From Bacteroidia bacterium (GTDB lineage Bacteria > Bacteroidota > Bacteroidia > Bacteroidales > Paludibacteraceae), in contig SAAO01000004.1 of assembly GCA_009929375.1 (NCBI GenBank), forward strand, positions 1-64,000: a stretch of DNA of 64,000 bases, read 5' to 3'. Below the pieces are notes generated by a model. That model saw only the letters and a list, made by a program, of their open reading frames with translations. It had not been told where the DNA came from and made no database searches. The position numbers were made by a program, and so were the translations under genes. Shown here piece after piece: positions 9,645-45,946 of this stretch. Numbering within the stretch: position 1 is the stretch's first letter; each line of letters starts with the position of its first letter.

Positions 9645-9845
9645 TTCTAACACAATAGAACACATAGAGATTATGGAGGAAAAAGACTTAGTTCACATAG
9701 TAAAAGTATCTTACGATACTTTTATCTCTCTGAAATTATCCCGATATTCGGGATAATCCTATGTGTTCTTAGTATTTTCTTTTGTTTTCAAAACTATTGC
9801 GTACTATGTTTTGAAAACATATCAATAATAATTATCGGTTACTTA
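9645..9845. repeat. 201-bp structured dispersed repeat, copy 1
   Basis: This stretch fills most of the htpG-nfnB gap and matches 42377-42577 along the same 201-bp length with only scattered substitutions. GAACACATAG (9658-9667) can pair with CTATGTGTTC (9759-9768). Inside are two perfect hairpins: AAAAGTATC/GATACTTTT (9702-9723) and ATTATCCCGA/TCGGGATAAT (9735-9757). A third stem, TGTTTTCAAAA (9783-9793) with TTTTGAAAACA (9809-9819), follows. It has no ORF. The right edge reaches the stop codon of nfnB (9843-9845). It could be a MITE-like element or a structured RNA. Confidence 0.85.
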
Positions 9846-11306
9846 GTTTTTCTCTTTAATCCATTTGTCCATCGATGCAGCAGCTTTACGGCCGTCACCC
9901 ATAGCCAGGATGACTGTTGCTCCACCACGCACAATATCGCCACCGGCAAAAATCATCGGGATATCGCTTTGCATCGAATCCTGATTTACCACAATGGTTC
10001 CCCATTTGGTGACTTCGAGACCAATCACTGATTGCGGAATAAGCGGATTGGGCGATACACCCACGCTGACAATCACTTCGTCCACTTCAATGGTTTCGGT
10101 TTGTCCGGGCACTTCAACCGGTGCACGACGTCCCGAAGCATCAGGCTCGCCAAGTTCCATCACCTGAAGCACCATTTCAGTCACACGTCCCTGTTCATTT
10201 CCTCTGAATTCAATCGGATTGCGAAGTGTCATAAACTCAATACCTTCTTCTTTGGCATGTTTTACTTCTTCGAGTCGGGCAGGCATTTCTTCTTCGGTAC
10301 GACGATAGATAATCATGGCACGACTTGCACCTAAACGACGGGCTGTTCGCACTGAGTCCATGGCGGTGTTTCCACCTCCGATTACTGCCACATGTTTTCC
10401 GAGAAAAACTGGAGTGTCTGAATCTTCGCTGGCAGCATCCATCAGGTTTACGCGGGTCAGATATTCGTTCGACGACATTACGCCCACAAAGTTTTCACCT
10501 TTAATGTTCATAAAACGAGGAAGTCCGGCGCCACTGGCTACAAATACACCTTTGAAACCATCTTCTTTCAAATCTTCGATAGTGATGGTTTTGCCAATAA
10601 TGCAGTTGGTAATGAATTTTACACCCATTGAACGAAGGTTCTCGATTTCCACATCTACAATGGCATTAGGCAAGCGGAATTCAGGAATACCATATTTCAA
10701 TACGCCACCAATTTCGTGAAGTGCTTCAAAAACAGTGACATCGTAACCCATTTTGGCCATGTCGCCTGCAAATGAAAGTCCGGCAGGTCCTGAACCAACG
10801 ACTGCGATTTTAATGCCATTGGGTGCACCTATTTCGGGTACCGATATTTTTCCGCTTTCGCGCTCGTAGTCGGCTGCAAAACGTTCGAGGTGACCGATAG
10901 CTACAGCTTCTTTTTTCATTTTTACGTGAATACATTGTGCTTCGCACTGTTTTTCCTGAGGACATACACGACCGCAAACTGCAGGTAGCGCTGAAGTTTC
11001 CTTCAGTGTTTTGGCAGCACCCAGAAAATCGCCTACTTCAATTTGCTTTACAAATTTAGGAATATAAATTCCAACCGGGCAACCCTCCATACAGGTTGGA
11101 TTGGCACAGTCGATACAACGTTGTGCCTCAGCCATTGCCATTTCGGGAGTGAGTCCGAGGTTCACCTCTTCCACTCTGGTGTGGCTGCGATATTCCGCAT
11201 CAAGTTCAGGCATGTGTACACGCGTTTTAGCTGTACGATCCTTGGTTTTTATTTCGTTACGTAAGTCAGCTCGCCACTGTTGAGCTCTTTCTTCGTTTAA
11301 ATCCAT
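9843..11306 (-). CDS. nfnB: NfnB-type oxidoreductase subunit (GltD-like, FAD and two 4Fe-4S)
   Basis: Large subunit of the electron-bifurcating NADH-dependent ferredoxin:NADP+ oxidoreductase, by homology and gene pairing. 487 aa. The N-terminal region carries two cysteine clusters, CIDCANPTCMEGCP (near 65) and CGRVCPQEKQCEAQC (near 110), for two 4Fe-4S centres. Then comes a glutamate-synthase-small-subunit-type flavoprotein fold with dinucleotide motifs VVGSGPAGLSFAGDMA (FAD, near 168) and VIGGGNTAMDSVRTARRLGA (NADPH, near 310), and a C-terminal GGDIVRGGATVILAMGDGR FAD segment. A stand-alone GltD is the alternative, but the NfnA-like partner directly upstream and the absence of gltB favour NfnAB. 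The stop codon lies within the edge of the 201-bp repeat. Confidence 0.88.
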   Translation of the reverse strand: MDLNEERAQQWRADLRNEIKTKDRTAKTRVHMPELDAEYRSHTRVEEVNLGLTPEMAMAEAQRCIDCANPTCMEGCPVGIYIPKFVKQIEVGDFLGAAKTLKETSALPAVCGRVCPQEKQCEAQCIHVKMKKEAVAIGHLERFAADYERESGKISVPEIGAPNGIKIAVVGSGPAGLSFAGDMAKMGYDVTVFEALHEIGGVLKYGIPEFRLPNAIVDVEIENLRSMGVKFITNCIIGKTITIEDLKEDGFKGVFVASGAGLPRFMNIKGENFVGVMSSNEYLTRVNLMDAASEDSDTPVFLGKHVAVIGGGNTAMDSVRTARRLGASRAMIIYRRTEEEMPARLEEVKHAKEEGIEFMTLRNPIEFRGNEQGRVTEMVLQVMELGEPDASGRRAPVEVPGQTETIEVDEVIVSVGVSPNPLIPQSVIGLEVTKWGTIVVNQDSMQSDIPMIFAGGDIVRGGATVILAMGDGRKAAASMDKWIKEKN

Positions 11307-11309
11307 CTT

Positions 11310-11363
11310 ATAGAATTTACAATTTATTCATTTACAATTTCTCATCACCACATCATTACAGCA
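11310..11363 (-). repeat. Intercistronic repeat between nfnA and nfnB
   Basis: The 57-base spacer begins at the nfnA TGA with a GTGATGA-like stretch and ends in a 30-base core (11314-11343) that matches the aminotransferase/DAHP-synthase spacer (15027-15056) at 28 of 30 positions. Key words, in the direction of transcription, are GAGAAAT, GTAAATGAATAAAT and GTAAATT. The core stops about 7 bases before the nfnB start codon. Confidence 0.75.
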
Positions 11364-12200
11364 TCACTTTCTTGCTCCGCTTGCGCAACTTAGTTTTTCA
11401 AGTTCTTCGCGTTCAATATCCTTGTAGCCGCCAAGACGCATCAGCATTTCGTCGAAATCAACCAAATGTGCATCGAATTCAGGTCCATCCACACATACAA
11501 ATTTTGTTTTTCCACCAATACTTACACGGCATGCACCACACATTCCGGTTCCATCCACCATAATGGTGTTCAGCGAAGCTACAGTTGGCAATTCGTATTT
11601 TTTTGTGAGCAGACTTACAAATTTCATCATGATAGCCGGGCCAATGGTCACACATAAATCCACTTTTTCGCGGTTTATCACCATTTCCACACCATTTGTC
11701 ACCAGCCCTTTGTTTCCATACGAACCATCGTCAGTCATGACAATAACTTCGTCGGAGTATTGTTTCATTTGTTCTTCGAGAATAATCAGTTCCTTTGTAC
11801 GGGCTGCAATCACAGTAATTACTTTATTACCTGCTTCTTTCAGCGCAGCCACAATAGGAAGCATTGGCGCAGTGCCCACACCACCACAGGCGCAAACCAC
11901 AGTGCCGAATTTTTCAATGTGAGTGGCTTTACCGAGAGGTCCGACAAGGTCGGTGATATATTCGCCTTCGTTCAACTCACACAATTTTGTAGAAGACACG
12001 CCCATTTTTTGCACCACAAGCGTAATGGTTCCTTTCTGCAAATTGGCATCGGCAATGGTCAAAGGAATTCGTTCGCCCTTTTCGCCCACTTTTACCATCA
12101 CAAAATGACCGGCTTTGCGCGATTTTGCAATAAGCGGAGCTTCCACTTCAAACTTCACCACATTGGCCGAAAAATACTCTTTGCTGATAATCTTGTTCAT
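11364..12200 (-). CDS. nfnA: NfnA-type FAD/2Fe-2S subunit (PyrK/FNR-like)
   Basis: Small subunit of the NfnAB transhydrogenase, the FAD-bifurcating half that takes NADH electrons. 278 aa with an N-terminal flavin beta-barrel (1-95, RIPLTIAD flavin motif), an NAD-binding Rossmann half (100-220, with CACGGVGTAPMLPIVAAL), and a C-terminal 2Fe-2S site (MVDGTGMCGACRVSIGG, then KFVCVDGPEFDAH). The Asp/Cys ligand pattern resembles T. maritima NfnA. The two genes are adjacent in the order A then B, as in clostridia and Thermotoga. Older annotation calls the pair sulfide dehydrogenase SudBA. The complex balances NADH, NADPH and reduced ferredoxin in fermentation. Confidence 0.88.
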   Translation of the reverse strand: MNKIISKEYFSANVVKFEVEAPLIAKSRKAGHFVMVKVGEKGERIPLTIADANLQKGTITLVVQKMGVSSTKLCELNEGEYITDLVGPLGKATHIEKFGTVVCACGGVGTAPMLPIVAALKEAGNKVITVIAARTKELIILEEQMKQYSDEVIVMTDDGSYGNKGLVTNGVEMVINREKVDLCVTIGPAIMMKFVSLLTKKYELPTVASLNTIMVDGTGMCGACRVSIGGKTKFVCVDGPEFDAHLVDFDEMLMRLGGYKDIEREELEKLSCASGARK

Positions 12201-12579: not shown

Positions 12580-12613
12580 TTTGCACAGTTTTCGCAAAAT
12601 TGTATTACTTTTG
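12580..12613 (+). promoter_or_regulatory. Promoter of the pheA leader transcript
   Basis: TTTG (12580-12583), a 22-base spacer, then TACTTTTG (12606-12613), an exact TAnnTTTG -7 element. Transcription would begin near 12620, about 19 bases before the leader-peptide ATG. Confidence 0.7.
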
Positions 12614-12638
12614 CTGCGAAATCAGAAACAGAAAAGAA

Positions 12639-12689
12639 ATGAATCGATTTTTTACATACTTTTATTTTTACTTTTACTTTAGCAGGTGA
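12639..12689 (+). CDS. Phe/Tyr-rich leader peptide of the aromatic operon
   Basis: A 16-codon ORF reads MNRFFTYFYFYFYFSR and stops at TGA 12687-12689. Ten of 16 residues are Phe (6) or Tyr (4), the codons expected for sensing charged tRNA-Phe and tRNA-Tyr before a prephenate dehydratase gene. It lies between a well-placed promoter and a factor-independent terminator that precedes pheA. The sequence right after its stop, GAGCAGGA (12690-12697), is the exact complement of the 5' arm of that terminator. A ribosome finishing the peptide would cover it; a stalled one would leave it free. Regulation is inferred from this architecture. Confidence 0.85.
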   Translation: MNRFFTYFYFYFYFSR

Positions 12690-12755
12690 GAGCAGGATAA
12701 TCGTATGTAAGCATAAAATGAAATAATGTAATACAAAATATGAAAAGTCCTGCTC
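12690..12755 (+). promoter_or_regulatory. Antiterminator pairing of the pheA attenuator
   Basis: GAGCAGGA (12690-12697) and TCCTGCTC (12748-12755) are perfectly complementary over 8 bp. The second segment is the 5' arm of the terminator at 12743-12780, so the two structures exclude each other. A weaker alternative, AGCAGG at 12681-12686 inside the leader ORF, can pair with the same arm. Confidence 0.75.
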
Positions 12756-12780
12756 ATTTGGTTGAGCGGGACTTTTTTTT
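12743..12780 (+). terminator. Attenuator terminator upstream of pheA
   Basis: AAAAGTCCTGCTC (12743-12755) pairs with GAGCGGGACTTTT (12764-12776) with one G-U, around an 8-nt loop, and continues into eight T. It ends 28 bases before the pheA ATG, so it must be bypassed for expression. Confidence 0.92.
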
Positions 12781-12807
12781 ATTCTAAACTTTTATTTTGA
12801 ACATAAA

Positions 12808-13653
12808 ATGAGGAAAGTAGCAATACAGGGAGGACTTGGAGCTTATCACGGCATAGCCGCCGAAAGATTTTTCGAAAACGAAGAGGTTGAAATCATTCCG
12901 TGTCCGGGTTTTATCGATATTTTTAAGACTATAAAAAAAGAACCTGAGGTAGTGGGCATTATGGCTATTGAAAACACTATAGCAGGAAGTCTGCTTCAAA
13001 ACTATGAATTGTTGAAGGAGCATAAACTGCCTGTGGCAGGCGAATATAAACTCAGAATTTCGCATTGTCTGGCTGCATTGCCCGGACAAACGATTCATGA
13101 TATACGCGAAATTCAATCGCATCCTATTGCACTGATGCAGTGTGGTAATTTTCTGGGTACTTTGCCGGGCGTAAAAGTGGTTGAACACGAAGATACAGCT
13201 CTTGCAGCGCGTGATATTGCACAACGTCAGTCTACTCAGATGGCCGCTATTTGCAGTGAGCGGGCTGCCGAGATTTATGGTTTGAATATTCTGGCCAAAG
13301 GAATCGAGACGAACAAACACAATTTTACCCGCTTCCTGATTTTTGGAAATGAATGGGTTGTGGACGAAATCACAAAGAACGATGACATTAATAAAGCATC
13401 AATTGTTTTCACACTGCCTCACTCTGAAGGAAGTTTATCCAAAGTGCTTTCAGTTTTTTCGTTTTATGATATCAACCTTACCAAAATTCAATCGCTACCA
13501 ATTATCGGACGCGAATGGGAATATCAGTTTTATGTTGATTTTAAGTTTAGCGATCATGAGCGTTACAAACAATGTCTGGTTGCCATTAAACCACTGATCA
13601 ATGAGTTTCGTTCGCTCGGCGAATATCCCGAAGGAGTGACTCCGGAGATATAA
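12808..13653 (+). CDS. pheA: Prephenate dehydratase
   Basis: Converts prephenate to phenylpyruvate in phenylalanine synthesis. 281 aa: a catalytic domain (1-180) opening with VAIQGGLGAYHGIAAERFF and containing the hallmark TRF triad in NKHNFTRFLIF (near 170), then a C-terminal ACT domain (200-275, SLSKVLSVFSFYDINLTKIQSLP) that binds Phe for feedback inhibition in relatives. Unlike the E. coli enzyme there is no fused chorismate mutase; that activity is on the third gene of the operon. It is the first structural gene behind the Phe/Tyr leader and attenuator. Confidence 0.95.
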   Translation: MRKVAIQGGLGAYHGIAAERFFENEEVEIIPCPGFIDIFKTIKKEPEVVGIMAIENTIAGSLLQNYELLKEHKLPVAGEYKLRISHCLAALPGQTIHDIREIQSHPIALMQCGNFLGTLPGVKVVEHEDTALAARDIAQRQSTQMAAICSERAAEIYGLNILAKGIETNKHNFTRFLIFGNEWVVDEITKNDDINKASIVFTLPHSEGSLSKVLSVFSFYDINLTKIQSLPIIGREWEYQFYVDFKFSDHERYKQCLVAIKPLINEFRSLGEYPEGVTPEI

Positions 13654-13654
13654 A

Positions 13655-13770
13655 AAAAGAACTCCTAACCCCCAAAGGGGAATAAAAATTGAATCGATTA
13701 TTACAATTATGATTATGAATAATATAGACAATACTAACCCGAACTCTCCTTCAGGAGTTGGGGGTAAAAC
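13655..13770. repeat. Inverted GC-rich repeat pair around the aminotransferase start codon
   Basis: ACTCCTAACCCCCAAAGGGG (13661-13680), in the spacer, and CTCCTTCAGGAGTTGGGGG (13746-13764), inside the coding sequence, are variants of one repeat type in opposite orientation. Each has its own small hairpin (CCCCAAAGGGG; CTCCTTCAGGAG). They flank the ATG at 13709, and the second encodes about residues 12-19 of the protein. Confidence 0.6.
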
Positions 13771-14926
13771 AATAAAACCTGCAGACCGTTTAAACTCGGT
13801 TTCGGAATACTATTTTTCGACCAAACTGAAAGAAGTGGCTGAGATGAATGCCCGCGGTCTGAATGTGATCAGTCTCGGAATTGGCAGTCCTGATATGCCA
13901 CCGTCAACCGAAACAGTGGAAGCTCTTAGCAAATCGGCTGCCGAAGCCACTGTACATGGCTATCAGCCTTATGTGGGTATTCCTGAATTGCGTAAAGCAT
14001 TTGCCAACTGGTATCAGAAATGGTTTGCTGTAACGCTGAATCCTGCTACAGAAGTACAGCCTCTCATTGGTTCAAAAGAAGGAATTCTGCATATTTCGAT
14101 GGCATTCCTGAATCCCGGTGATGGCGTATTGGTTCCCGATCCGGGTTATCCGACATATTCATCGGTAAGCAATCTGGTGCAGGCAAAAATCCATACTTAC
14201 GAACTGGATGAAGCCAATGGCTGGCAACCTGATTTCGATGCGCTCGAACAAATGGATTTAAGTAACGTTAAACTCATGTGGGTAAATTATCCTAACATGC
14301 CTACAGGAGCTCCGGCAACAAAAGAGTTGTTTGAAAAGTTAGTGGCTTTCGGAAAAAAACACGGAATTGTAATTGTAAACGACAATCCGTACAGTTTTAT
14401 ACTGAACGAAAATTACCTGAGCATTCTTCAGGTGGAAGGAGCAAAGGACATTTGTATAGAACTGAACTCAATGAGCAAATCGCACAATATGCCGGGCTGG
14501 CGTATGGGAATGCTGGCTTCGAATGCCGAATTTGTGCAATGGATTCTGAAAGTAAAAAGCAATATCGACAGCGGACAGTTTAAACCCATGCAGCTGGCAG
14601 CCATTGCCGCGCTTCAAAACAGTAAGGAATGGCACCGGAAAATGAACATTGAACTTTACAGCAACCGCAGAAATCTGGCTGAGGAAATAATGAAAACGCT
14701 CGGTTGTACTTTTGATGAAAAACAGGTGGGCATGTTCCTCTGGGGAAAAATTCCAGACAACTATGTTGATAGTGGCGAACTGGCGGATAAAGTACTTTAC
14801 AATGCCAAAGTATTTATCACTCCGGGTTTTATTTTTGGTGAAAAAGGAAAACGGTTTATACGCATTTCACTTTGTGCCAGCGAAAAAATGCTGAATGAAG
14901 CGCTGGAAAGAGTGAAGGTGATGTGA
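13709..14926 (+). CDS. Class I/II PLP-dependent aminotransferase (aromatic operon)
   Basis: Probably the transaminase for the last step to Phe and/or Tyr, from operon position. 405 aa of the fold-type I aspartate-aminotransferase family: substrate loop near PPSTETVEAL (60-75), cofactor motif VNYPNMPTGAP (near 195), NDNPYSF (near 225) and the Schiff-base Lys in NSMSKSHNMPGWRMG (near 255). The conserved part begins near residue 24 (IKPADRLNSVSEYYFS). The preceding residues, including NSPSGVGG, are coded by a GC-rich repeat that seems to have entered the gene's 5' end, so the true start is not certain. The enzyme is distinguishable from LL-DAP aminotransferase only by context. Confidence 0.88.
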   Translation: MIMNNIDNTNPNSPSGVGGKTIKPADRLNSVSEYYFSTKLKEVAEMNARGLNVISLGIGSPDMPPSTETVEALSKSAAEATVHGYQPYVGIPELRKAFANWYQKWFAVTLNPATEVQPLIGSKEGILHISMAFLNPGDGVLVPDPGYPTYSSVSNLVQAKIHTYELDEANGWQPDFDALEQMDLSNVKLMWVNYPNMPTGAPATKELFEKLVAFGKKHGIVIVNDNPYSFILNENYLSILQVEGAKDICIELNSMSKSHNMPGWRMGMLASNAEFVQWILKVKSNIDSGQFKPMQLAAIAALQNSKEWHRKMNIELYSNRRNLAEEIMKTLGCTFDEKQVGMFLWGKIPDNYVDSGELADKVLYNAKVFITPGFIFGEKGKRFIRISLCASEKMLNEALERVKVM

Positions 14927-15063: not shown

Positions 15064-16125
15064 ATGGAATTAGAATCAATTTTGCTTCCGGGAATGGAAG
15101 ATAAACGTCCGATGATCATAGCAGGTCCCTGCAGTGCTGAAACGGAAGAACAGGTAATGGAAACTGCCAGAAGTCTGGCAGCGCGTGGAGTGAAAATTTT
15201 CCGCGCAGGTGTTTGGAAACCCCGTACAAAACCCGGAGGTTTCGAAGGTAACGGATCTATTGCTTTTCCCTGGCTGAAAAGAGTAAAAGCCGAACTTGGA
15301 ATGTATGTTTCGACCGAGGTTGCTACTGCGGCTCACGTGCGTGAAGCACTGGCCAATGACATCGACATGATTTGGATTGGTGCCCGTACTTCGGCTAATC
15401 CTTTTGCCGTGCAGGAAATTGCTGATGCGCTAGAAGGTGTGGATATTCCTGTACTGATCAAAAATCCGGTGAATCCTGATCTGGATTTGTGGATTGGCGC
15501 TGTGGAACGTATTTACAACGCAGGTATTCGCAAAATCGGAGCCATACACCGTGGTTTCAGCTCATACGACAAGAAAATTTACCGCAACCTGCCACAGTGG
15601 CATATTCCGATTGAACTGCATCGCCAGATTCCTAATTTACCGATTATTTGCGACCCGAGCCATATCGGAGGAAAACGTGAACTGATTGCACCCATATCGC
15701 AGCAGGCAATGGACTTAAACTTCGATGGACTGATTGTGGAATCGCACTGCAATCCTGAGAAAGCATGGAGCGACGCTTCGCAACAGGTAACACCCGAAGT
15801 GCTCGACTTTATTCTGAATACACTTGTCATCCGCGATATTACACAAACCACCGAAAGTCTTTCGGCACTTCGTCGCCAGATCGACGACCTCGACAATAGT
15901 CTGCTCGAACTTCTTGCCCGTCGTATGCGTGTGTCGCGTGAAATCGGTCAGTACAAAAAGGAGCATAATATGCCCATTTTACAGGCGCAACGATATGATG
16001 AAATTCTGCAAAAACGAATTTCGCAGGCCGAGCAAATGGGAATGGATACAGAATTCATGAAAACTGTACTGGTGGCCATTCACGAAGAGTCGGTTCGACA
16101 CCAGCAGGAAATTATGAAAGATTAA
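15064..16125 (+). CDS. Bifunctional DAHP synthase / chorismate mutase
   Basis: Catalyses the first shikimate-pathway step and the chorismate-to-prephenate branch. 353 aa: a type I-beta DAHP synthase barrel (1-255) with AGPCSAE, the phosphate/metal motif KPRTKPGGFEG, and IHRGFSSYDKKIYRN; the late DPSHIGGKRELI supplies the metal His. A type II (AroQ) chorismate mutase helix bundle occupies about 265-350 (LRRQIDDLDNSLLELLARRMRVSREIGQYKKEHNMP). Fused synthase-mutases of this order are known in Bacteroidota, where prephenate binding to the mutase can inhibit the synthase. Last gene of the operon; tyrA, often next in Bacteroides, is absent and a terminator follows. Confidence 0.95.
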   Translation: MELESILLPGMEDKRPMIIAGPCSAETEEQVMETARSLAARGVKIFRAGVWKPRTKPGGFEGNGSIAFPWLKRVKAELGMYVSTEVATAAHVREALANDIDMIWIGARTSANPFAVQEIADALEGVDIPVLIKNPVNPDLDLWIGAVERIYNAGIRKIGAIHRGFSSYDKKIYRNLPQWHIPIELHRQIPNLPIICDPSHIGGKRELIAPISQQAMDLNFDGLIVESHCNPEKAWSDASQQVTPEVLDFILNTLVIRDITQTTESLSALRRQIDDLDNSLLELLARRMRVSREIGQYKKEHNMPILQAQRYDEILQKRISQAEQMGMDTEFMKTVLVAIHEESVRHQQEIMKD

Positions 16126-44545: not shown

Positions 44546-45946
44546 ATGTCAGTATTAAGCACAAAGGAAAAATCAGTTCATATCAATCTCTATTCTAACT
44601 ATTACGGTTCAATCGCAGAAATTGGAGGAGGGCAGGAGACAGCACGTCATTTGTTTCAGGCCGGAGGAGCTTCAAATACTGTAGCCAAAACAGTTTCGGC
44701 TTACGATAAGTCGTTCAGCGACCATTTTTATAACAACGGACAACCTTCGCGATATGTAGCTCAGGAACGTTTGCTGAAGATGATTGATTATGAGTACAAC
44801 GAAATGGTTGAAGTGCTCGACAAAAAAAACGATCAGAAATTTTTTGCCTTTGCCAACACTGTCGAAATTCTTAATTACACAAAAACTAATCAGGGCAATG
44901 GCTGGCTTGGTATTGCAGTGGAAGGTTCGGAACGTTATAAGCCCAACAAAATACTCCTTCATATAAAGTTGCACGAAAACGATACACTGCTTCAGCAACA
45001 TACGCTGGGTACAATTGGCATTAATCTGATACATGCGGCACTGAACGAAAATCCGGATCCACGACAGATCATCAGTGCTTTGCTTGATAATCTGGACACA
45101 GATCGTGTGGAAGTGGATTTTGTGCATGTGGAAGGCCCTGATCTTGAATGGTGTGATAACCGCTTGCTCAATCTTTTTCTGGTGAGCAATAACATGACGC
45201 CTGCTGTAATGTTCGACGAAAATGGTCGCGTACAGCAACCTGCCGATATGCTTTACAAAAAAAATGTACTGCTTATGCGCGGGCATTTCAGACCGATCAG
45301 CAATCTGGTGCTCGAGTTTTTTGACGACAGTCTTGAAATGTTCAGGCGCGATGAGGATTACCGGCCCGATAATACAATCGCTTTTTGTGAAATATCACTG
45401 AAATACCTTTTTCAGAACGAAAAACTCGACGAAAAAGATTTTCTGCACCGCGTCGATTTGCTCAATATGGCTGGTAAATGTGTAATGGTGTCCAATTTTT
45501 ACCGTTATTTCAAACTGGTGGATTATTTTGCTCAATTCAAAATGATAAAGTTGCGTATTGTGTTGGGATTGAATACTTTCGATCGTATTTTTCATAGATC
45601 GCAGTACACCGACCTGAAGGGAGGAATGCTCGAGGCTATGGGTACACTTTTTCAGGAAAATGTAAAATTGTATTTGTACCCTTTTACGAATATCAACTCG
45701 GGCGATATTATTTATCCCGACGATGATCATTTTCATGAAGAATATAAACCATTGTGGCAGTATTTACGGGCAACCCGCAAAATTCTGGTGCTGAACGGTA
45801 TTCCGACCCATCATTTGCGTATTACGCCCGATCGTATTACCAAAATGATTCGAAAGGCTGATCCTGCGTTGAGCGAACATCTTCCGGCCAAAGTTTACGA
45901 ACATATCAAATCCGAAAAGCTTTTCGGATACGGAGATGAAATCTGA
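44546..45946 (+). CDS. Conserved protein of unknown function (often mislabelled TonB-box or NMN adenylyltransferase-like)
   Basis: 466 aa, no signal peptide and no membrane segment, so cytosolic. The N-terminus (INLYSNYYGSIAEIGGGQETARHLFQAGGAS) and the block TIAKTVSAYDKSFSD ... RLLKMIDYEYNEM, then ILHIKLHENDTLLQQHTLGTIGINLIHAAL and GPDLEWCDNRLLNLFLVSNNMTPAVMF, recall a family seen in cyanobacteria, proteobacteria and Bacteroidota. I recognise the pattern but no established function; public names for it conflict. No Rossmann or nucleotide-binding signature was found. It follows nth by 27 bases and overlaps the small downstream ORF by 11 bases. Confidence 0.7.
   Translation: MSVLSTKEKSVHINLYSNYYGSIAEIGGGQETARHLFQAGGASNTVAKTVSAYDKSFSDHFYNNGQPSRYVAQERLLKMIDYEYNEMVEVLDKKNDQKFFAFANTVEILNYTKTNQGNGWLGIAVEGSERYKPNKILLHIKLHENDTLLQQHTLGTIGINLIHAALNENPDPRQIISALLDNLDTDRVEVDFVHVEGPDLEWCDNRLLNLFLVSNNMTPAVMFDENGRVQQPADMLYKKNVLLMRGHFRPISNLVLEFFDDSLEMFRRDEDYRPDNTIAFCEISLKYLFQNEKLDEKDFLHRVDLLNMAGKCVMVSNFYRYFKLVDYFAQFKMIKLRIVLGLNTFDRIFHRSQYTDLKGGMLEAMGTLFQENVKLYLYPFTNINSGDIIYPDDDHFHEEYKPLWQYLRATRKILVLNGIPTHHLRITPDRITKMIRKADPALSEHLPAKVYEHIKSEKLFGYGDEI

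Follow-up and report, generated by a model that had tools for sequence, protein, structure and literature searches.

Leader-peptide attenuation has long been known, with pheA of E. coli among its examples, and the leader peptide of enterobacterial pheA is rich in Phe and is not known to contain Tyr. Bacteroid-trp RNA is a Trp attenuator, and attenuation of amino-acid operons in bacteria was reportedly treated in a comparative study by Lopatovskaya et al. in 2010 (Mol Biol 44:128), which may cover Bacteroidetes. Attenuation of E. coli pheA is named in PMC1183508, and Bacteroid-trp (RF01692) is a candidate cis-regulatory RNA of Bacteroidetes, named for trp (PMC2864571). Bacteroidota are described in the text of PMC9723704 as lacking Shine-Dalgarno sequences; the same source reports strong clues that amino-acid operons of the phylum are preceded by leader-peptide attenuators, and a structured element 5' of pheA in Flavobacteriaceae that is conserved in other genera of that family and had no Rfam hit. 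Short ORFs reminiscent of leader peptides occur in the 5' UTRs of B. thetaiotaomicron (PMC7366714), and in Salmonella the mgtCBR operon carries two leader ORFs with attenuators in series, which sense ATP and proline (PMC3641672).

The window, by which is meant the whole stretch of 64,000 nucleotides that was analysed, comes from a member of the Paludibacteraceae and holds a pheA gene preceded by a short ORF, a complementary arm and an intrinsic terminator (Table 1). These parts very probably form a ribosome-mediated transcription attenuator of pheA and the two genes that follow it, for an aminotransferase and a DAHP synthase-chorismate mutase fusion, a reading backed by the fact that the genes are those of aromatic amino-acid synthesis. 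Together, the leader and the RNA stop signal very probably let the cell make more Phe and Tyr only when these are short. Among the papers listed by the literature search, none has a title or abstract opening that describes a Phe/Tyr leader of pheA, and four features are provisionally regarded as new: the Phe/Tyr code, the covariation of the antiterminator, the existence of two stop architectures and the tandem units.

The leader region of pheA

The sequence-only reading of the window had proposed a leader ORF with 6 Phe and 4 Tyr in 16 codons, a sequence just after its stop that pairs perfectly with the 5' arm of a terminator, and a strong terminator shortly before pheA. All three were borne out. 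Read base by base, 10 of the 16 sense codons between the ATG and the TGA (12687-12689) are for Phe or Tyr, and GAGCAGGA and TCCTGCTC are perfect complements. The terminator stem has 15 pairs (12742-12777, -22.8 kcal/mol), the T8 tract follows, and 27 bases separate its end from the ATG of pheA. The interval given in that reading began at 12606, the first base of TACTTTTG.

Table 1. Positions of the leader, its RNA elements and the genes downstream in the window
Feature	Position	Strand	Basis
Probable promoter -7 box TACTTTTG, TAnnTTTG type	12606..12613	+	Consensus named in PMC9723704
Leader ORF MNRFFTYFYFYFYFSR and stop, 6 Phe and 4 Tyr codons	12639..12689	+	Base-level reading and conservation; translation predicted
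Leader hairpin: ACATAC (12654-12659) pairs with GTATGT (12703-12708), pyrimidine-rich codons onto purine arm	12654..12708	+	Fold
Antiterminator 5' arm GAGCAGGA, directly 3' of the stop codon	12690..12697	+	Covariation with terminator 5' arm
Intrinsic terminator	12742..12780	+	Terminator scan, fold, covariation
Terminator 5' arm, holding TCCTGCTC	12748-12755	+	
Terminator 3' arm GAGCGGGA	12764-12771	+	
Terminator T8 tract	12773-12780	+	
pheA, monofunctional prephenate dehydratase	12808..13653	+	Pfam PF00800, E 6.5e-54; closest solved structure 2qmx (prephenate dehydratase), E 3.2e-47
Class I/II aminotransferase, probably same operon	13709..14926	+	Pfam PF00155, E 3.8e-64
DAHP synthase-chorismate mutase fusion, probably same operon	15064..16125	+	Pfam PF00793 and PF01817

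The terminator was one of four sites listed by the terminator scan, against 0.4 in shuffles, and the other three were short, on the minus strand and within pheA. The fold of the leader region was better than those of all 200 dinucleotide shuffles (z -5.4), and the leader hairpin was predicted at -19.3 kcal/mol for 12639-12735. A scan for sigma-70 promoters gave no excess (3 sites, against 2.9 in shuffles); a TAnnTTTG box at most 60 nt upstream of the leader start was present at 121 of 145 loci, compared with 9 of 422 control stretches and 4% of shuffles. For the aminotransferase, no NCBIfam cut-off was reached among the matches listed. Upstream of the leader lies a divergent gene pair on the minus strand (9843-12200), one member specifying an FAD/NAD-binding protein with a dihydroorotate dehydrogenase B-type iron-sulfur domain and the other a pyridine nucleotide-disulphide oxidoreductase with a Fer4_20 domain.

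In the proposed mechanism, transcription would begin just past the TACTTTTG box, and a ribosome would translate the 16-codon leader behind RNA polymerase. Should charged Phe- or Tyr-tRNA be short, the ribosome would stall on the run and cover the pyrimidine-rich codons that otherwise fold onto GAGCAGGA; the freed arm would pair with TCCTGCTC as this is transcribed, no terminator would form, and polymerase would continue into pheA. With Phe and Tyr both plentiful, the ribosome would reach the UGA and mask GAGCAGGA, so that TCCTGCTC would pair with GAGCGGGA and transcription would end before pheA.

In principle a switch between terminator and antiterminator might be driven by sensors of any kind, including a tRNA- or ligand-sensing RNA such as a T-box or riboswitch, for which translation would be unneeded. 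This is scarcely credible here, as the conserved part is the ORF and the arm stands at a fixed distance from the aromatic codons; moreover, no Rfam family reached its gathering score in the leader, no T-box or riboswitch family did so anywhere in the window, and no T-box was among the matches listed for the leader at E values up to 10. The 29 matches to the leader at E up to 10 were all below their gathering scores. The best was ncr1575, a Bacillus sRNA (37.7 bits against a gathering score of 60, E 0.00025), taken to reflect a resemblance to a U-rich leader plus terminator. RF01859 (Phe_leader) scored 22.2 bits, below its gathering score of 55, and RF01692 was absent both at the gathering score and among the 29. 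There being no Rfam model for the element, automatic annotation would miss the leader.

Conservation of the aromatic codons and of the pairing

Upstream DNA of pheA relatives came from four sources: 60 genomes including that of the window (46 with a match), 80 named contigs with mostly Bacteroidales titles, a class sample, in which 42 of 149 genomes had a match, and a phylum sample, in which 102 of 118 did, the last two again including the window's genome. The class sample contributed 40 of its 41 other matching loci (G081 was left out), and other classes contributed 27 of 77 matching genomes, with 50 left out and only 215 nt upstream at locus L211. Loci with less than 120 nt upstream were skipped in the detection of leader, arm and terminator; those with less than 300 nt were skipped in the comparison of ORFs with shuffles, from which 15 duplicates were also taken out. 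All three parts were found at 147 loci, one of them spurious (L033) and removed, leaving 146. Three more loci (L089, L098, L121) have a Phe/Tyr ORF and failed the terminator rule, while three with weaker leaders, of 4 Phe/Tyr in 8 codons (L135, L146, L166), were added by eye only. An earlier detector had found 106 of 126 loci, missing among others four pheA leaders that seemingly start with GTG (L053, L054, L088, L124).

Of 191 non-duplicate pheA upstream regions (300 nt), 138 contained a short ORF in which 6 or more of 8 codons were for Phe or Tyr. The same criterion picked out 33 of 3820 dinucleotide shuffles and 4 of 684 stretches taken from elsewhere in these loci, so that the pattern exceeds what chance would give. 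In close relatives RFFTYFYFYFYF is nearly unchanged; in farther ones the peptide is altered yet still Phe/Tyr, such as MKSFTYAYYFFFYFYF in Bacteroides and MFYYYFFYYP in L045. Because T makes up 69% of the tract, which is paired with the arm in the leader hairpin, it could be argued that a U-rich RNA was selected, as a protein or Rho site or as a pairing element, with the ORF a by-product. The codons make this very unlikely. Over the last 8 codons of the run, 91.7% were Phe or Tyr, a value raised by the selection of the 146 loci for at least 5 Phe/Tyr in 8 codons, against 48% predicted by the run's base composition; the other two frames lack the pattern (means of 2.45 and 1.48 Phe/Tyr per 7 codons, against 6.36 in frame), 142 leaders begin with ATG and 4 with GTG, and distant leaders differ in sequence while remaining Phe/Tyr.

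Both amino acids appear in 145 of the 146 runs, with an average of 3.9 Tyr per leader, and both Tyr codons are common (TAC 279, TAT 185). These counts make it unlikely that the attenuator senses Phe only, as at enterobacterial pheA, with Tyr codons tolerated for the A that pairs with the purine arm. Such a view would suit a first gene that serves Phe synthesis, and pairing of the run with the arm could favour UAC at the RNA level, but the step of the third gene, DAHP synthase-chorismate mutase, serves Tyr synthesis also. Sensing of both Phe and Tyr is preferred. Trp codons are present as well in 19 leaders (for example L150, L155, L158, L180, L182, L183 and L185), which suggests from codon content that some lineages may sense all three aromatic amino acids; Trp codons would fit an operon with a DAHP synthase.

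By script, the complete arrangement was found at 43 of the loci L001-L046, 67 of 80 named loci, 25 of 40 class-sample loci (28 once the three leaders seen by eye are counted, the other 12 being without a Phe/Tyr leader) and 2 of 27 loci of other classes. Named loci with a leader include Bacteroides, Phocaeicola, Parabacteroides, Alistipes, Dysgonomonas, Petrimonas and Muribaculaceae. The two from other classes (L169, L174) are likely cases of transfer or of an odd class boundary, because in the tree their enzymes nest within the leader-bearing clade. The prephenate dehydratases on two contigs titled Planctomycetaceae (L101, L102) branch inside Bacteroidales, a placement suggestive of misnamed bins or of transfer, and L101 carries a Phe/Tyr/Trp-rich ORF besides. 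A covariance model of 34 leaders, that of the window included, gave one match in the window's own genome (E 2.9e-22; the next, at 0.006, was partial) and matched 54 of 81 genomes of the family, some of which were also rows of the model. The tyrA gene and a second DAHP synthase gene of this genome sit on other contigs, and no Phe/Tyr leader was seen in the 450 nt upstream of either.

The arm is complementary to the terminator 5' arm in each locus's own letters: besides GAGCAGGA/TCCTGCTC in the window, the pairs are GAGCGGGA/TCCCGCTC in B. fragilis (L069), GGGCTCAA/TTGAGCCC in L045 and GAGGCTT/AAGCCTC in L170 and L171. Among 75 representatives, pairing within the locus averaged -13.3 kcal/mol, against -8.8 (sd 0.30) with partners swapped, and none of 10,000 permutations was as good. 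Arm and terminator had first been picked jointly, a possible source of bias in this test; choosing the terminator blind to the arm gave the same pick at 146 of 146 loci and the same result. In the 34-row alignment 94.8% of antiterminator cells were paired and 26 cells were changed on both sides, each equalled in 0 of 500 shuffles; on the same alignment, neither pairs with a double change (124 of 500) nor further pair types (500 of 500) were in excess over shuffles. For the outer helix, ACATA:TATGT, a rough per-locus count gave 7.5 pairs against 5.5 in shuffles, and the helix was left uncounted on alignment A2, where its 3' side was judged out of register.

The likeness of GAGCAGGA to GAGCGGGA could be taken to mean that the arm is a relic duplicate of the terminator 3' arm, the terminator itself either attenuating constitutively or closing an upstream transcript. 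This is extremely improbable, given that at one column pair the U or C of the terminator is answered without exception by A (21 rows) or G (13 rows) in the antiterminator, whereas the terminator 3' arm forms G-U in 11 of 34, so that the arm is matched more strictly there than the terminator's own 3' arm; the neighbouring upstream gene, moreover, is on the opposite strand. The expectations of the sequence-only reading thus held among relatives, where the Phe/Tyr codons are conserved in the 138 regions, both amino acids recur together, and the mutually exclusive pairings are maintained by covariation.

Ribosome position, stop codons and spacing

The ribosome was modelled as a block of unpaired bases extending 11, 13 or 15 bases past the P site, on RNA folded to just past the terminator 5' arm, and the outcome for the window was common to all three footprints. 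Placing the A site on any one of the ten Phe/Tyr codons gave the antiterminator a modelled probability of 0.86-1.0; placing it on the stop gave 0.0. The spacing provided by the two codons Ser-Arg after the run would thus let a ribosome at the stop just cover the arm. The arm was also predicted to pair with the leader codons before the terminator is made, with a probability of 0.85 in the window and a median of 0.80 over the 146 loci (mean 0.71, against 0.47 with the leader letters shuffled).

Spacing between the last aromatic codon and the arm is nearly fixed, at 5-16 nt in 144 of 146 loci, and the stop codon occurs in two architectures. It lies before or at the arm in 69 loci, and in 66 of these a modelled ribosome at the stop blocks the antiterminator. 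The ORF of 72 loci continues across the arm (in Bacteroides, for example, it ends in YFYFSNKVEREFVCIK), and a ribosome at the later stop blocks the antiterminator in only 34. Classic attenuation, as put forward in the sequence-only reading, therefore agrees with the model for the window and for those 66 relatives, but a simple stop-codon model explains the read-through ORFs only partly. The switch may be set by how far the arm lies from the last aromatic codon and its basal level tuned by the stop, which would agree with the trp/his model of PMC1183508, where release of the ribosome at the stop determines basal read-through.

For ribosome-free RNA ending after the terminator 5' arm, the predicted equilibrium antiterminator probability was 0.99 in the window, with a median of 0.90 over the 146 loci, and a modelled stall raised it by more than 0.2 above the free RNA in only 45 of 146. 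Since this equilibrium favours the antiterminator, an untranslated RNA would terminate by default only if the leader hairpin acted as a kinetic trap.

The leaders of L149 and L152, which belong to one genus, are nearly identical except that L152 has an in-frame TAG before the arm where L149 has CAG. A programmed frameshift was considered for the read-through ORFs, as an out-of-frame stop triplet often stands just before the arm, and was rejected by eye because the frame of the triplet varies from lineage to lineage and its bases are also those that pair with the pyrimidine run.

Leader-peptide attenuation requires a ribosome close behind RNA polymerase. Retention of a Phe/Tyr attenuator at 67 of the 80 named loci, which are mostly from Bacteroidales and include gut Bacteroides, and at 28 of the 40 in the class sample would therefore imply working transcription-translation coupling in a major phylum, for which the leader could serve as a native reporter in testing.

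Enzyme clade, tandem units and comparison with known systems

In the ACT domain, ESRP is the ligand-binding motif (PMC10845154). The enzyme of the window has QSLP at that position (residues 228-231), while 2qmx has ESRP. QSxP was found at all 146 leader-bearing loci; ESRP was found at 21 loci, all of other classes, none with a leader. In a quick tree of 89 enzymes the QSxP rows made up one starred clade of 69, in which L163 (TSIA), L164 (QLIP) and 15 rows without a leader are also placed. The Phe/Tyr leader is confined to one prephenate dehydratase clade without ESRP, although, as a single event on the tree, the link between QSxP and leader is a correlation beyond the reach of a statistical test. 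We tentatively consider an evolutionary history, rather less probable than its alternatives taken together, in which control shifted from enzyme to RNA at the origin of the Bacteroidia-type enzyme: ESRP would have been lost (now QSxP), and perhaps Phe feedback inhibition with it, and an attenuator for Phe and Tyr, and in some lineages Trp, would have been gained and later tuned by shifts of the stop and by tandem duplication. If true, this would be a trade of enzyme feedback for RNA control within the QSxP clade, and it is testable.

Two Phe/Tyr leader-terminator units stand in series before a single pheA at seven loci (L037, L045, L118, L133, L162, L241, L242). The script had flagged 8 of 203 loci, one of which (L008) was discounted for its TTG start on an inverted repeat; L160 appears tandem by eye and was unflagged. 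In the two that were tested, L241 and L242, the best partner of each arm is that of its own unit, though the second arm can also pair with the partner of the first unit (-9.6 and -8.0 kcal/mol, against -12.8 and -12.9). A steeper response would be expected from two serial units.

Attenuation may be general in the window's own genome, because a Leu/Ile-rich short ORF, MNRSFLHIILLGIIILLQNKTK, and then a terminator precede a leuA-type gene on another contig (L221, contig C76). The gene there is HMGL-like (44931-45731, minus strand), and an overlapping Tyr/Ser-rich ORF in another frame weakens the Leu/Ile leader reading.

Among described systems, the pheA 5' element of Flavobacteriaceae precedes the same gene in the same phylum and is likely the same element as that of the window, a comparison made from descriptions, as the text of PMC9723704 gives no leader sequence, codon content or antiterminator. 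Bacteroid-trp is likewise a candidate cis-regulatory RNA of Bacteroidetes, but differs in giving no match to the window leader at E up to 10. The mgtCBR leader of Salmonella resembles the seven tandem relatives in having serial units before one operon; its two units, however, respond to unlike signals, whereas those of the relatives are both rich in Phe and Tyr, and the window has one unit. The pheA attenuator of E. coli and Salmonella (RF01859) shares with the window locus its gene, a short ORF rich in codons for the end product, and antiterminator and terminator structures that exclude one another, while the leader of the window differs in bringing Phe and Tyr codons together.
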